A DNA stretch of 64,000 nucleotides from Polynucleobacter paludilacus (GTDB lineage: Bacteria; Pseudomonadota; Gammaproteobacteria; Burkholderiales; Burkholderiaceae). Under the pieces are notes generated by a model. The model searched no databases, was not told where the DNA came from, and was given only the letters and a program-made list of their open reading frames with translations. The stretch is from NCBI RefSeq assembly GCF_018687595.1, contig NZ_CP061298.1, positions 434,001 through 498,000 on the forward strand, read 5' to 3'. Of the stretch, positions 31,142 through 35,351 are shown one piece after another. The first letter of the stretch is position 1, and each line of letters begins with the position of its first letter. Position numbers and translations under genes: made by a program.

Positions 31142-31171
31142 TGGACAAGGGAATTTCATTAGGGTTATAAT
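31142..31171 (+). promoter_or_regulatory. Strong sigma-70 promoter of the 34-residue gene
   Basis: TGGACA (31142-31147), an 18-base spacer and a perfect TATAAT (31166-31171) form one of the best consensus promoters in the window. The predicted transcript starts near 31178, reads the small gene at 31200 and ends at the terminator at 31325, giving an RNA of about 175 bases. Confidence 0.7.
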
Positions 31172-31199
31172 CTAGGTATTAACCCTTAGGAGATTCCAA

Positions 31200-31304
31200 A
31201 TGACCCAACTAATCAACATGATTAATCAACTTTTCACAGAAAAAACAGCCGCTGAAAAGCAAGCTCGTCATTACGATTTTGATGGCGCTTATCGCGGCAT
31301 GTAA
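31200..31304 (+). CDS. Unrecognised 34-residue small protein
   Basis: This short frame encodes 34 residues, from MTQLINMINQLFTEKT to HYDFDGAYRGM. The N-terminal half can form an amphipathic helix (LINMINQLF) and the C-terminal half is charged and aromatic. I do not recognise the family. Support for translation is AGGAG 7 bases before the ATG. Support for independent transcription is the near-consensus promoter at 31142-31171 and the intrinsic terminator at 31325. There is no signal peptide and no cysteine. It could instead be a dual-function small RNA. It sits between tRNA-Thr and the MFS transporter gene. Confidence 0.65.
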   Translation: MTQLINMINQLFTEKTAAEKQARHYDFDGAYRGM

Positions 31305-31324
31305 TTGCTAGTTAAACTAGATTA

Positions 31325-31352
31325 ATTAAAAGCCACCTTCGGGTGGCTTTTT
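31325..31352 (+). terminator. Intrinsic terminator after the 34-residue gene
   Basis: AAAAGCCACC, the tetraloop TTCG, GGTGGCTTTT and further Ts form a textbook Rho-independent terminator 20 bases after the small gene's stop. Confidence 0.92.
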
Positions 31353-31441
31353 TGTTGCCACTTTTTTCTGTGGATCGATCAAGGGTAATCACTAATCCTG
31401 AATTTGGTAATTCTTGATTACTGTCAATACTATCTAGGTTG

Positions 31442-31494
31442 GATTGATTGAGAATCAATCGAATCTTTTTGATGACAACTTCAATTTGTGAAGT
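31442..31494. promoter_or_regulatory. Palindromic operator-like sites upstream of the MFS transporter
   Basis: A perfect palindrome GATTGATT-gag-AATCAATC occupies 31442-31460. A second inverted repeat ACTTCA/TGAAGT lies at 31478-31494. A TATAAA (31498-31503) follows and could be the -10 of the MFS gene. Such spacing fits repressor or activator sites, but no adjacent regulator gene identifies the factor. Confidence 0.45.
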
Positions 31495-31543: not shown

Positions 31544-32797
31544 GTGACTAAACCTTGGCATAACCGCTGGGCACAGCTTTTTTTCGGCATCATCTGCATG
31601 GGCCTTGTCGCTAATTTGCAATACGCTTGGACTTTATTCGTTAACCCCATTCATGTGAAAACAGATTGGGCACTTTCTGCAATTCAACTTTCATTCTCCA
31701 TTTTTATTGTGGTTGAGACATGGCTAGTCCCAGTTGAGGGATGGATGGTAGATAAGTTTGGCCCCAAAATTGTGATCATGATTGGTGCAGTTTTTGCAGG
31801 CGCTGGTTGGGTCATGGATAGTATGGCAACTTCTTTAGAGATGCTCTATGCCGCCGCAGTGGTAGCTGGTATTGGTGCTGGTTGCGTTTATGGCACCTGC
31901 GTTGGCAATGCGCTCAAATGGTTTCCAGATAAGCGCGGCTTAGCTGCTGGTCTTACTGCTGCTGGTTTCGGCGCTGGTGCTGCGATCACGGTTATTCCAA
32001 TTGGGAATATGATCATTGCTCAGGGATATGAGCAAGCTTTCTTCTTCTTTGGTATCGCTCAAGGCGTATTGATTTTCATCTTGGCTTTATTGATGACCAA
32101 GCCTACTCCACCAAAAGGAATTCAGGCTGCACCACGTGTTGTTACTACTAAAGTGGATTACACCGCTGGCCAGATGATTAAAAAGCCACTGTTCTGGTTA
32201 ATCTATGTGATCTTTGTTGTCGTTGCAGCTGGCGGATTGATGGCAACAGCCCAAATCGGCCCAATTGCAAAAGACTATGGCTTGGCTACTTTACCAATGA
32301 TGCTCTTTGGTACAACCTTGCCTTTGCTCACCATGACCTTGTCGATCGATAATCTCTGTAATGGCTTCACACGTCCTCTGTGTGGATTTATCTCTGACAA
32401 GATTGGGCGCGAGAACACCATGTTCATCGTGTTCACTGGCGAAGGCTTAGCCATGCTCGGTTTGATGAATTATGGTCATGACCCAGTCTTATTTATGACC
32501 TTTGCAGCCTTGATCTTTTTGTTCTGGGGTGAGATTTTCTCAATCTTCCCAGCAATCTGTGCAGATACTTTTGGCGTTAAGAATGCGGCTGGTAATGCCG
32601 GCACCCTTTATACCGCTAAGGGAACAGCTTCTTTAATCGTGCCTTTTGCTTCAGTGCTTTCTGCTGGCGGCAACTGGAACACCGTATTTATAGCTGGAGC
32701 AGTAGTCACCATTACTGCAGCTTTCACAGCCAAGTTCATTTTGGCGCCAGCCCGCAAGCGCTTTATTGATGCCGCTAATGCACGTGGTACGCCTTAA
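31544..32797 (+). CDS. MFS transporter, oxalate/formate antiporter (OxlT)-like
   Basis: This 417-residue inner-membrane carrier of the major facilitator superfamily has about 12 helices. It resembles the OxlT group: WAQLFFGIICMGLVANLQYAWTLF in helix 1, VDKFGPKIVIMIGA in the 2-3 loop, CVGNALKWFPDKRGLAAGLTAAGFG, and GFISDKIGRENTMF in the second half. Family members exchange oxalate/formate or move other small carboxylates; the actual substrate is not certain. The start is GTG 31544 with GGAGGAG 7 bases upstream. It stands alone behind a palindrome-containing control region and ends at a strong hairpin terminator. Confidence 0.85.
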   Translation: MTKPWHNRWAQLFFGIICMGLVANLQYAWTLFVNPIHVKTDWALSAIQLSFSIFIVVETWLVPVEGWMVDKFGPKIVIMIGAVFAGAGWVMDSMATSLEMLYAAAVVAGIGAGCVYGTCVGNALKWFPDKRGLAAGLTAAGFGAGAAITVIPIGNMIIAQGYEQAFFFFGIAQGVLIFILALLMTKPTPPKGIQAAPRVVTTKVDYTAGQMIKKPLFWLIYVIFVVVAAGGLMATAQIGPIAKDYGLATLPMMLFGTTLPLLTMTLSIDNLCNGFTRPLCGFISDKIGRENTMFIVFTGEGLAMLGLMNYGHDPVLFMTFAALIFLFWGEIFSIFPAICADTFGVKNAAGNAGTLYTAKGTASLIVPFASVLSAGGNWNTVFIAGAVVTITAAFTAKFILAPARKRFIDAANARGTP

Positions 32798-32876: not shown

Positions 32877-33242
32877 ATGACATTCCGCAATCGCAAACTC
32901 GTCCACTGGATCGCTGCAGCATCGATTCTGATGAGTGCGCTTGCCCCTGCGATTGCTCAGGCAGTAGTCAAAAATGGCAACGGCTTTGCAATGGAAGTGT
33001 GCTCCACTTCCGGCAGCAAGATGATACAAATGCAGTCGGATGATTCTGGTAAAGCGGATGTCAAAATGCAGGCCTGTCCTTATTGCCTTGCTCATGCCAG
33101 TATTACGCCCTCATTTGAGAGTCACATCTCGGTTGACGCGCCTCAAAGTTACGCTTTATTTCCAGCGCTTTTCTATCAATCACCCAAGCCACTCGCGAAT
33201 TGGGTAAGCCCTCCCTCAGCAGCTCCTCCAGCACAAGCCTAA
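32877..33242 (+). CDS. DUF2946-like small exported protein
   Basis: This 121-residue protein has an N-terminal signal-like helix (KLVHWIAAASILMSALAPAIAQA) and a mature part containing a CxxC (ACPYCLAHASI) and a Met-containing stretch (MIQMQS). DUF2946 members are small periplasmic or membrane proteins often found next to copper-related genes; function is not established. It comes before the Cys-motif outer-membrane barrel on the same strand, with a hairpin GCATAGC-GTTT-GCTATGC (33256-33273) in the gap, so the two may share an mRNA with partial termination. Confidence 0.7.
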   Translation: MTFRNRKLVHWIAAASILMSALAPAIAQAVVKNGNGFAMEVCSTSGSKMIQMQSDDSGKADVKMQACPYCLAHASITPSFESHISVDAPQSYALFPALFYQSPKPLANWVSPPSAAPPAQA

Positions 33243-33255
33243 TTTAGTCATTAGG

Positions 33256-33273
33256 GCATAGCGTTTGCTATGC
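33256..33273 (+). repeat. Intercistronic hairpin
   Basis: GCATAGC (33256-33262) and GCTATGC (33267-33273) with loop GTTT form a perfect 7-bp stem between the DUF2946 gene and the barrel gene. No T-run follows, so attenuation or mRNA stability is more likely than full termination. Confidence 0.55.
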
Positions 33274-33300
33274 ATTGGGTAATTCTTGTTGGAGCAGTAA

Positions 33301-34341
33301 ATGAAATTAAAAAAATTAATATTGGCAATGGCATTTCTGATGCCAGCGGTAGAGGTCATGGCTTGTGCTAGTTGTGGATGTAGCTTAAATACCGATATTG
33401 GCACTCAGGGGATGGGCATGTCTGGTGGTTGGACTCTAGATGTGCGTTACGACGTACTGAATCAAAATAAACTGATGTCTGGGACTAAAAGCATTTCTCA
33501 GCAAGCTGTAAACGCTGCCAATCCTAGTGCTGAGGTTGAGAACTTTACACAGAATAACTATCTAACGGCCTCTCTTGATTACAACGATGGAGAGGCTTGG
33601 GGAGTCACTACATCCTTGCCTTACATCATGAGAACCCATAGTACTTTTGGTTCTGGTGATGGCTCACCTGATGGCGCGGCAAATGCAAGCAATCCATCCG
33701 GAAATGGCTACCTATCTCAAGCTTCGGGTTTCGGGGATATGAAAATCATTGGGCGCTACTTTGGATTTTCTGAAGAAAAGGATTGGGGTTTTCAGTTTGG
33801 CGCGAAGCTGCCGACGGGAAGCAATTCTCAAGTGACAACAAATAATGCGGGTCAGACGCAAGCGGTTGATCCGGGGCTGCAGCTAGGTACCGGTTCAACC
33901 GATTTGATCGGAGGAATTTATAAATTTGGTTTTATCCCCAAGACTGAAAACTGGGGTTATTTTGCAAACCTACAGTATCAAGCAACCGTTAAGCCTACTA
34001 ATGTTCCTAGTAGCTTCGCTACGCTTGGTAACCCAAGTTCTGGATCTTATCGGCCAGGTAATGCATTCAATGTAAACATCGGTGCTAATTACCAAGGCTT
34101 TGAGAAATGGGTGCCCACGGTTCAAATCAACTTCTTAAATAAGAAAGTGGATAGCGGTACTGCAGCAGATACTTTATCAACGGGCGGCACATTGGCATAC
34201 CTTACGCCCGGCGCTTTGTACAACCTAAGCGATAAAACTCAGGTCTATGCAAATGTGCAGCTACCGATTTATCAAAACGTGAATGGCTATCAGTTAGTGC
34301 CCACCTTTATTGCCTCAATGGGTGTGCGAGTGCGTTTCTAA
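33301..34341 (+). CDS. Outer-membrane beta-barrel protein with N-terminal CxxCxC motif
   Basis: This 346-residue exported protein has a signal peptide (MKLKKLILAMAFLMPAVEVMA) followed at once by CASCGCSLNTDIGTQGMGM, a cysteine/methionine cluster suited to binding copper. The rest alternates polar and aromatic residues in amphipathic strands and ends in GVRVRF with a terminal Phe, the mark of an outer-membrane barrel recognised by BAM. I cannot assign a specific transport role. The neighbours (DUF2946, TlpA-like, PCu(A)C) point to copper or cytochrome oxidase metal handling. Its stop directly abuts the stop of the convergent TlpA-like gene. Confidence 0.75.
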   Translation: MKLKKLILAMAFLMPAVEVMACASCGCSLNTDIGTQGMGMSGGWTLDVRYDVLNQNKLMSGTKSISQQAVNAANPSAEVENFTQNNYLTASLDYNDGEAWGVTTSLPYIMRTHSTFGSGDGSPDGAANASNPSGNGYLSQASGFGDMKIIGRYFGFSEEKDWGFQFGAKLPTGSNSQVTTNNAGQTQAVDPGLQLGTGSTDLIGGIYKFGFIPKTENWGYFANLQYQATVKPTNVPSSFATLGNPSSGSYRPGNAFNVNIGANYQGFEKWVPTVQINFLNKKVDSGTAADTLSTGGTLAYLTPGALYNLSDKTQVYANVQLPIYQNVNGYQLVPTFIASMGVRVRF

Positions 34342-34845
34342 CTATTGAGCGTTTAGCAGTGGGGTAACGAGTTCTTCAAGAAGTTTGGTGTCGACAGTAG
34401 CATCACCTTTCATACCATTCTTCCTGAGGATGCCATGTTTATCGATGATGAAGGTGCTTGGGATACGCCAAATGCGCCCGTAATCTGAGTAATCCATTTG
34501 TTTCTTCTCGGCAAATAGAAAGGGGTAGTTCTGCATGATCTGTTTTACTTGTTGCATATCAGCCGGTTTATCTACAGTGATAGCTAGGACTTCCAATCCT
34601 TTAGATTTATTCTTTTTCAGAAAGGCTTCGATGGCTGGCATTTCTTCGCGGCAGGGTTCGCACCAACTTGCCCAAAAATTGACTAAGACCACTTTGCCTT
34701 TATTGGCTTGCAGAGAGAAGGGCTTGCCATCAATCAAGGTTCCTTCTATATTGGGTGCGGGCTGGCCGACTTCAATTCCGGCAAGAGCAATATTGGCTAG
34801 AGCAGAAGTGAGTAACACAAAAAGAATTTGATAGACGCGTGTCAT
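34342..34845 (-). CDS. TlpA-like thiol-disulfide oxidoreductase
   Basis: This 167-residue thioredoxin-fold protein is directed to the periplasm by an N-terminal hydrophobic segment (YQILFVLLTSALANIALAG). It has the active site WCEPC in VLVNFWASWCEPCREEMP and the cis-Pro region GRIWRIPSTFIIDKHG. TlpA/ResA proteins reduce disulfides in apocytochrome c or in copper-site proteins of cytochrome oxidase. I chose ATG 34845 (MTRVYQILF) over 34872 because it gives a normal signal sequence. It is divergent from the PCu(A)C gene with 41 bases between starts, so both are probably co-regulated. Confidence 0.87.
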   Translation of the reverse strand: MTRVYQILFVLLTSALANIALAGIEVGQPAPNIEGTLIDGKPFSLQANKGKVVLVNFWASWCEPCREEMPAIEAFLKKNKSKGLEVLAITVDKPADMQQVKQIMQNYPFLFAEKKQMDYSDYGRIWRIPSTFIIDKHGILRKNGMKGDATVDTKLLEELVTPLLNAQ

Positions 34846-34886
34846 TTGTATGAGTATTTCATGAAATTCCATTTAAGGAGAAGGTA

Positions 34887-35351
34887 ATGATAAAGAATCA
34901 AACAGGCTGGCTATTCAGCATTGCGCTAATGGCTTTGACTGGGGGCATCCAGGCACAGGAAGCCAAAGTAGGCTCTATCAAGATTGAGAATGCCTACGTT
35001 CGTGCGACCGCGCCAGGACAGCCCGCTGCTGGCGCTTTTATGAAGATTGAAAATAGTGGCGCTGCAGATCAATTGGTTTCAGCCAGCTCTCCTGCAGCTG
35101 GCGAGGTTCAACTTCACCAAATGTCGATGGAGGGTAATGTGATGAAGATGGGGCAGGTTAAAGATATCGCTGTGCCTGCTAGCGGATCAGTTGATCTCAA
35201 GCCCGGCGGCTATCACATCATGCTGATGAATATCAAAGCACCATTGAAGGCGGGTGAAACTGTGCCAGTCAAACTGAAGTTTGCCAAGGCGGGTGAGGTG
35301 GAGGTGAAGTTGCCGGTTAATGCGGTTGGCAGTAGTATGAATATGCACTAA
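34887..35351 (+). CDS. Periplasmic copper chaperone, PCu(A)C family
   Basis: PCu(A)C proteins bind Cu(I) in the periplasm and deliver it to the CuA site of cytochrome c oxidase. The 154-residue protein has a signal peptide ending near IQAQ and the metal motif: LHQMSMEGNVMKM, then GGYHIMLMNIKAP, which supply the His and Met ligands of the H(M)x10Mx21HxM pattern. An AAGGAGAAGG ribosome site precedes the ATG. It is divergent from the TlpA-like gene, whose product could keep the copper ligands reduced. A strong terminator follows. Confidence 0.92.
   Translation: MIKNQTGWLFSIALMALTGGIQAQEAKVGSIKIENAYVRATAPGQPAAGAFMKIENSGAADQLVSASSPAAGEVQLHQMSMEGNVMKMGQVKDIAVPASGSVDLKPGGYHIMLMNIKAPLKAGETVPVKLKFAKAGEVEVKLPVNAVGSSMNMH

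Follow-up and report, generated by a model that had tools for sequence, protein, structure and literature searches.

The closest described counterparts of the locus reported here are small bacterial proteins made from short RNAs. In the SgrS/SgrT system of enterobacteria, a short and separately transcribed RNA gives rise to a small protein of 43 residues that is tied to a transporter. The AzuCR and VcdRP RNAs likewise encode small proteins, AzuC (28 residues) and VcdP, that tune carbon metabolism. As described in the pertinent parts of PMC8672173, SgrT inhibits the PtsG transporter, AzuC raises the activity of GlpD and VcdP (29 residues) raises that of GltA. Genes this short are usually missed in annotation, and few small proteins have a partner that can be tested. 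Comparative genomics names such a partner in the present case, the oxalate/formate antiporter of a widespread freshwater genus.

The gene lies on the forward strand of a 64,000-nucleotide stretch of Polynucleobacter paludilacus DNA (contig NZ_CP061298.1, positions 434,001 to 498,000), called the window here; positions are those of the window, and all features are on its plus strand. The host genome is 1.67 Mb long and forms a single contig. An earlier note, made from the letters of the window, had proposed that an unrecognised protein of 34 residues is encoded here by a gene with its own transcript, and all of the elements that it named are present between 31142 and 31353. This proposal holds up: the frame is intact in 35 of 35 relatives and under constraint, the promoter core and terminator are conserved, and the protein matches no family. 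The main new fact, absent from that reading, is the linkage of the gene with an antiporter gene downstream.

A conserved gene of 34 codons

Direct reading of the sequence places the ATG at 31200 and the end of the TAA stop codon at 31304, enclosing 34 codons (MTQLINMINQLFTEKTAAEKQARHYDFDGAYRGM). Intact relatives of the 34-residue query occur in 13 of 61 genomes, its own genome counted. A profile built from ten of them gives 35 strong matches (E < 3e-18) in 35 of the 151 Polynucleobacter genomes searched, and the next best match has E = 0.002. Every strong match has an open frame of 34 to 35 codons, and all of the encoded proteins end in GAYRGM followed by TAA.

The C-terminal 12 residues (RHYDFDGAYRGM) are nearly invariant among the 35 sequences. 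Of their 12 codons, 10 differ among genomes in the third base but only one in either of the first two bases, that for residue F28 of the alignment, which is also C or Y. The middle of the protein is variable, and differences in length are whole codons. The median pairwise dN/dS among 34 distinct coding sequences is 0.17, a descriptive value because the pairs are not independent (519 of 561 pairs were usable and 42 were left out). On the strength of the third-position variation, the whole-codon length changes and this ratio, the 34-codon frame is a conserved gene under protein-level selection. The search of related genomes and the dN/dS check that the earlier note had suggested both speak for its proposal.

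Searches of Pfam, NCBIfam, PHROGs and PDB give no significant profile match for the small protein, the best being at chance level (0.15 in NCBIfam, 0.27 in PDB). Among 399 genomes of the order, strong profile matches are confined to five genomes of the same genus, and the other 21 matched genomes hold weak partial matches only (E 0.008-0.1). A wider contig scan returns at least 19 loci; among the matches listed, 12 are from Polynucleobacter and seven from MAGs with broader labels. Nothing on the 34-residue protein was found in the literature searched. By these comparisons the protein is previously unrecognised, and within the searches made its gene is restricted to Polynucleobacter.

Promoter, leader and terminator

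The window carries a -35-like hexamer TGGACA (31142-31147), an 18-base spacer, a -10 hexamer TATAAT (31166-31171) and a Shine-Dalgarno sequence AGGAG (31188-31192) with a 7-base gap to the ATG. These elements are conserved to different degrees. The -10 hexamer of relatives is TATAAT, TATACT, TACAAT or TAAACT, and most of them have AAGGAG. The -35 hexamer is not conserved. At spacings of 16 to 18 bases, at least four of six matches to TTGACA are found in only 11 of 35 loci; TTGCAN is the most frequent sequence at this place, and 19 of 35 loci have a TTGC-N2-4-GCAA dyad.

The earlier note had also counted the promoter among the strongest seen and taken it to imply an abundant RNA. This part of its reading is not supported, as the -35 is not conserved. 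Chance alone would give about one promoter match of this quality in a window. The window has a single site with at least 11 of 12 promoter matches, and 12 simulated windows (first-order Markov) have zero to two each, with a mean of about one. Sites with at least 9 of 12 matches number 10 between 25000 and 38000, which is fewer than in shuffles (mean 17.3). Promoter strength was rejected as evidence for a gene on these grounds. Since the promoter elements alone prove little, the case rests on comparison among relatives, and what goes beyond chance in that comparison is the conservation of the frame, the -10 and leader, the Shine-Dalgarno sequence and the terminator.

The 42 bases 5' of the start codon are nearly fixed over the 35 loci (ATTAGGGTTATAATCTAGGTACTAACCCTTAAGGAGATTCAA); the window deviates at a few positions. 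Within this stretch lie the -10 hexamer, the Shine-Dalgarno sequence and an imperfect operator-like dyad, TTAGGGTTA-N12-TAACCCTTA (31159-31188), whose arms at 31159-31167 and 31180-31188 cover the -10 and the predicted transcription start. The core that bears the dyad is present as a single copy in each of six of 12 genomes searched, exactly the six that have the gene.

An intrinsic terminator with a UUCG loop follows at 31328-31353. Its stem, AAAAGCCACC-TTCG-GGTGGCTTTT, spans 31328-31351 and begins ahead of the transporter gene, 16 to 23 bases past the stop codon in the set of relatives. A perfect stem of at least seven pairs is found in 32 of 35 loci. The exceptions are one locus with a mismatch (L013), one interrupted by inserted DNA (L018) and one with no terminator (L005).

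In an RNA alignment covering 24 of the 35 loci, three pairs of the terminator stem are changed on both sides, and no other predicted pair of the transcript is. The RNA folds better than shuffled sequences (z -4.0), largely through the terminator, and the stretch from the stop codon to the terminator is not conserved. Because changes on both sides are confined to the terminator, there is no sign of conserved RNA structure beyond it, and a non-coding RNA with conserved structure was rejected as a candidate. The earlier note had reasoned that a frame broken in relatives with its RNA structure kept would argue for a non-coding RNA. The opposite is found: the frame is kept, and compensatory change is seen in the terminator stem only.

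A search of the whole window with Rfam 15 gives no match at gathering score except two tRNAs. Only sub-threshold matches fall at 31149-31436, among them Phe_leader with 27.5 bits where 55 are required. A table in PMC2864571 lists a Polynucleobacter-1 RNA (RF01718), for which the window has no Rfam match, and the locus is not mentioned in the relevant portions of PMC8632094, where structured RNAs are treated and Polynucleobacter is among the organisms covered.

The leader sequence CTANGTANTAACCCTNA occurs exactly twice in the genome, before the 34-residue gene and before a frame for an unrecognised protein of 53 residues (1290329-1290487 of the host contig, with relatives at three further loci). 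The longer frame is present in 21 of 151 Polynucleobacter genomes, sometimes in two copies, and is followed by a frame of 31 to 33 residues. It has no match in Pfam, NCBIfam or PHROGs. The two proteins resemble each other over their first 12 to 18 residues (profile E 0.006 and weaker) and have similar ends, SRGL and YRGM; the 53-residue protein is longer and differs in the remainder of its C-terminal part and in its genomic context. Because of the shared leader and the weak N-terminal similarity, they may be paralogues of one small-protein family.

A two-gene cassette

The gene downstream (31544-32797) encodes an MFS protein of 417 residues that scores 600 bits against TIGR04259, the oxalate/formate antiporter family, for which the cut-off is 335. 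Its family and the presence of oxc and frc genes lead us to infer that its product exchanges oxalate for formate. The small gene and the MFS gene directly adjoin in this order and on the same strand in all 20 of the loci that were inspected over about 11 kb (20 of the 35). In the smaller loci, the gap between the two is 238 to 353 bases in 34 of 35 cases; in G172, the exception, an insertion widens it to about 1.7 kb.

An antiporter with at least 50% identity occurs in 39 of 151 Polynucleobacter genomes, including all 35 that have the small gene, and none of the 112 genomes without such an antiporter has it. Fisher's test of this co-occurrence gives 3e-30, a figure that overstates the case because the genomes share ancestry. 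Four genomes have the antiporter and no small gene. In one of them (G165) the antiporter locus is cut by a contig end. In G136, genes like TctC, TctB and TctA stand directly 5' of the antiporter, and in G097 and G130 the antiporter sits in another context. The antiporter therefore has no strict need of the small gene, as G097, G130 and G136 do without it.

Antiporters of two types occupy the site. Compared with that of the window, they are 86-100% identical in 11 of 35 loci and 50-59% identical in 24, and examples of both types pass the TIGR04259 cut-off, with 600 and 643 bits. Identical small proteins adjoin one type and the other (L007, L008). In a tree of the neighbouring ABC protein, presence and absence of the pair are scattered: the 31 rows require 10 changes, and well-supported branches force at least three of these; two of 33 rows (G011, G147) are not in this tree because their loci do not hold the ABC gene. 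With 10 changes, some of them forced, the pairing has therefore persisted while the genes were repeatedly gained, lost or exchanged as a cassette. Judged by its constant co-occurrence, the pair of small gene and antiporter gene is a two-gene cassette.

Two other candidates for linkage were tried and rejected. A tRNA-Thr(CGT) gene lies upstream in only eight of 20 loci with the small gene, and it is also found in genomes without it. The oxc gene was discarded as the determinant of the small gene because it is much more widespread, exceeding its cut-off in 118 of the 151 genomes.

The site itself is a slot after a cyanophycin-linked DUF1854 gene, in which the small gene and antiporter alternate with a TctC-type system (L158-L169). 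DUF1854 is found in 12 of 14 genomes searched. Where the cassette is missing from the slot, a TctC-type uptake gene fills it in nine of 12 checked genomes, one example being confirmed by Pfam. The DUF1854 side is kept in 10 of 12 checked genomes, which are OFA-less or have the antiporter elsewhere and share the same ABC neighbour. The alternation looks as if alternative organic-acid importers were being exchanged.

Several further observations concern the surroundings of the antiporter. In G023 (L173, L005), the antiporter gene has two stops, a search for oxc gave no match and the small gene has lost its terminator, with the small frame intact; the use of oxalate is apparently decaying in this one lineage. 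In G097 (L104/L174), a further antiporter copy is preceded by a frame of 33 residues, MKRIMNFLNIIFQTYSEAYMVARSKKYFRFESY, and by a regulator that looks winged-helix-like by eye. Although this small frame too is close to an antiporter, its sequence has no evident relation to the 34-residue protein. In the window, the antiporter gene is followed at 32877-35351 by genes for a DUF2946 protein, a 346-residue protein without family match and two more proteins that we take to be TlpA-like and PCuAC-like, possibly a copper-handling group.

Control of the antiporter gene

The region 5' of the antiporter gene has conserved elements of its own. A box GGGTAATCACTA lies at 31383-31394 and a CRP/FNR-type box TTGATTACTGTCAA at 31414-31427. 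Among the 34 loci that reach the antiporter start, all have the first box 31 to 32 bases ahead of the second, and all have TTGAY-N4-RTCAA in the second. At class II promoters, the CRP/FNR-type box lies about 41.5 bases ahead of the transcription start and the -10 begins 29.5 bases from its centre. The -10-like GAGAAT of the window (31450-31455) begins 29.5 bases from the box centre. A GGGT..ACTA box like GGGTAATCACTA recurs, by eye, 5' of the TctC genes found in the slot elsewhere in the genus, and boxes of this type may be read by a second regulator.

The genes for oxalate breakdown lie elsewhere. One oxc and two frc genes, over the TIGR03254 and TIGR03253 cut-offs, are found about 33-37 kb upstream (7386-12578 of L175 on the same contig, which is 1.4-6.6 kb before the window). 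Directly 5' of them is a gene with a cNMP-binding domain (CRP/FNR-like), with a box TTGACCCAAGTCAA between this gene and oxc. A CRP/FNR-type box stands ahead of oxc in six of six genomes. Because the antiporter gene has a conserved promoter-like region, the small gene is probably more than a leader to it. Judging by the boxes at the antiporter and at oxc, a CRP/FNR-type oxalate regulon probably includes the antiporter, and the small gene would answer another signal.

Possible functions of the small protein

Chances are about even that the product of the small gene assists or regulates oxalate transport. Such a protein could attach to the inner membrane or to the antiporter through an N-terminal amphipathic helix (residues about 2-13). 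The hydrophobic moment of this segment, TQLINMINQLFT in the window, is reached by 0.8% of shuffles, and by 0.9% and 2.8% for two other orthologues. The invariant C-terminal RHYDFDGAYRGM might serve as a contact or effector segment that tunes the activity or stability of the transporter; alternatively, it might couple the transporter to oxalyl-CoA metabolism. An AlphaFold2 model consists of a single helix, residues 2-32, and is too poor to support any interface (pLDDT 71, pTM 0.29). The small protein would be made on the signal of its own promoter, differing from the CRP/FNR-type signal of the antiporter, and the separate promoter suggests that it adjusts the transporter under a condition other than the one that induces it. 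The co-inheritance could also reflect both genes moving as one cassette. A bolder proposal, possible and rather doubtful, is that the protein is small, soluble and dedicated to the regulation of an OxlT-type antiporter. It would be the first example of its kind, genus-specific, binding the antiporter or adjacent membrane via the amphipathic helix and gating the entry of oxalate, perhaps as a protection from stress by acid or oxalate.

These proposals have to be weighed against readings that leave the antiporter out or assign the frame another role. The small protein may be real but serve a purpose other than oxalate transport, such as a role in the membrane or in stress like that of its 53-residue relative, and merely travel with the antiporter gene in an exchangeable genomic slot. 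The slot is indeed exchanged, with either the cassette or a TctC-type gene (nine of 12 without the cassette) after DUF1854; the 53-residue relative with the same leader motif lives in other gene contexts; identical small proteins stand beside both antiporter types; and G023 keeps the frame despite a broken antiporter. However, not one of the 112 antiporter-less genomes keeps the small gene, though the DUF1854 side remains in 10 of 12 checked, and this reading is on balance unlikely. That the whole is a chance frame without a gene is scarcely credible: the chance-level promoter match in the window would fit, but frame, third-position pattern, leader and terminator are conserved in 35 genomes.

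Two other readings give the transcript a regulatory part. Translation of the small frame might sense a metabolite and control terminator read-through into the antiporter gene, so that the frame would encode a leader or arrest peptide. The segment up to the stop is the most conserved, the stop is TAA in all 35 genomes, and the terminator comes 16 to 23 bases on, before the transporter gene. Yet a conserved promoter-like region precedes the antiporter gene itself, and its box keeps a near-exact spacing in 34 of 34 loci; no conserved structure competes with the terminator, the frame has no single-codon run, and the Rfam leader match is weak (Phe_leader, 27.5 against 55 bits), which makes such attenuation quite improbable. 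A dual-function RNA of the SgrS/SgrT type, in which the transcript of about 175 bases would pair with target mRNAs and encode a peptide as well, could draw on the short transcript with its own promoter and a terminator with U tail, on the almost invariant 5' leader and on a fold better than shuffles (z -4.0, mostly terminator). Outside the terminator, however, no pair is changed on both sides, and the unconserved stretch from stop to terminator leaves little room for pairing besides the leader; we consider this reading very unlikely.

Comparison with known systems

In one Polynucleobacter population, according to the sections concerned of PMC3308952, low-molecular-weight photoproducts of humic matter are reported as the main substrates; the strain described there did not assimilate oxalate. 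If the small protein does act on the antiporter, transporter control by a tiny protein would be added to oxalate metabolism. The genus would then offer a natural experiment, in which the cassette is present in some genomes and replaced by another transporter in others.

The genetic partner of the small gene is a TIGR04259 (OxlT-type) antiporter, with oxc and frc in the same genome, and no small protein is described as part of this antiporter family in the literature searched. As compared by description, the locus differs from SgrS/SgrT in both protein and partner, and its conserved part is the coding region, not a pairing segment. AzuCR and VcdRP, compared in the same way, have enzymes as partners, and their RNAs also base-pair with mRNAs. 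Seen beside these systems, the 34-residue protein is a new one of a general type already known, with a function that we infer and a specific partner that can be tested.
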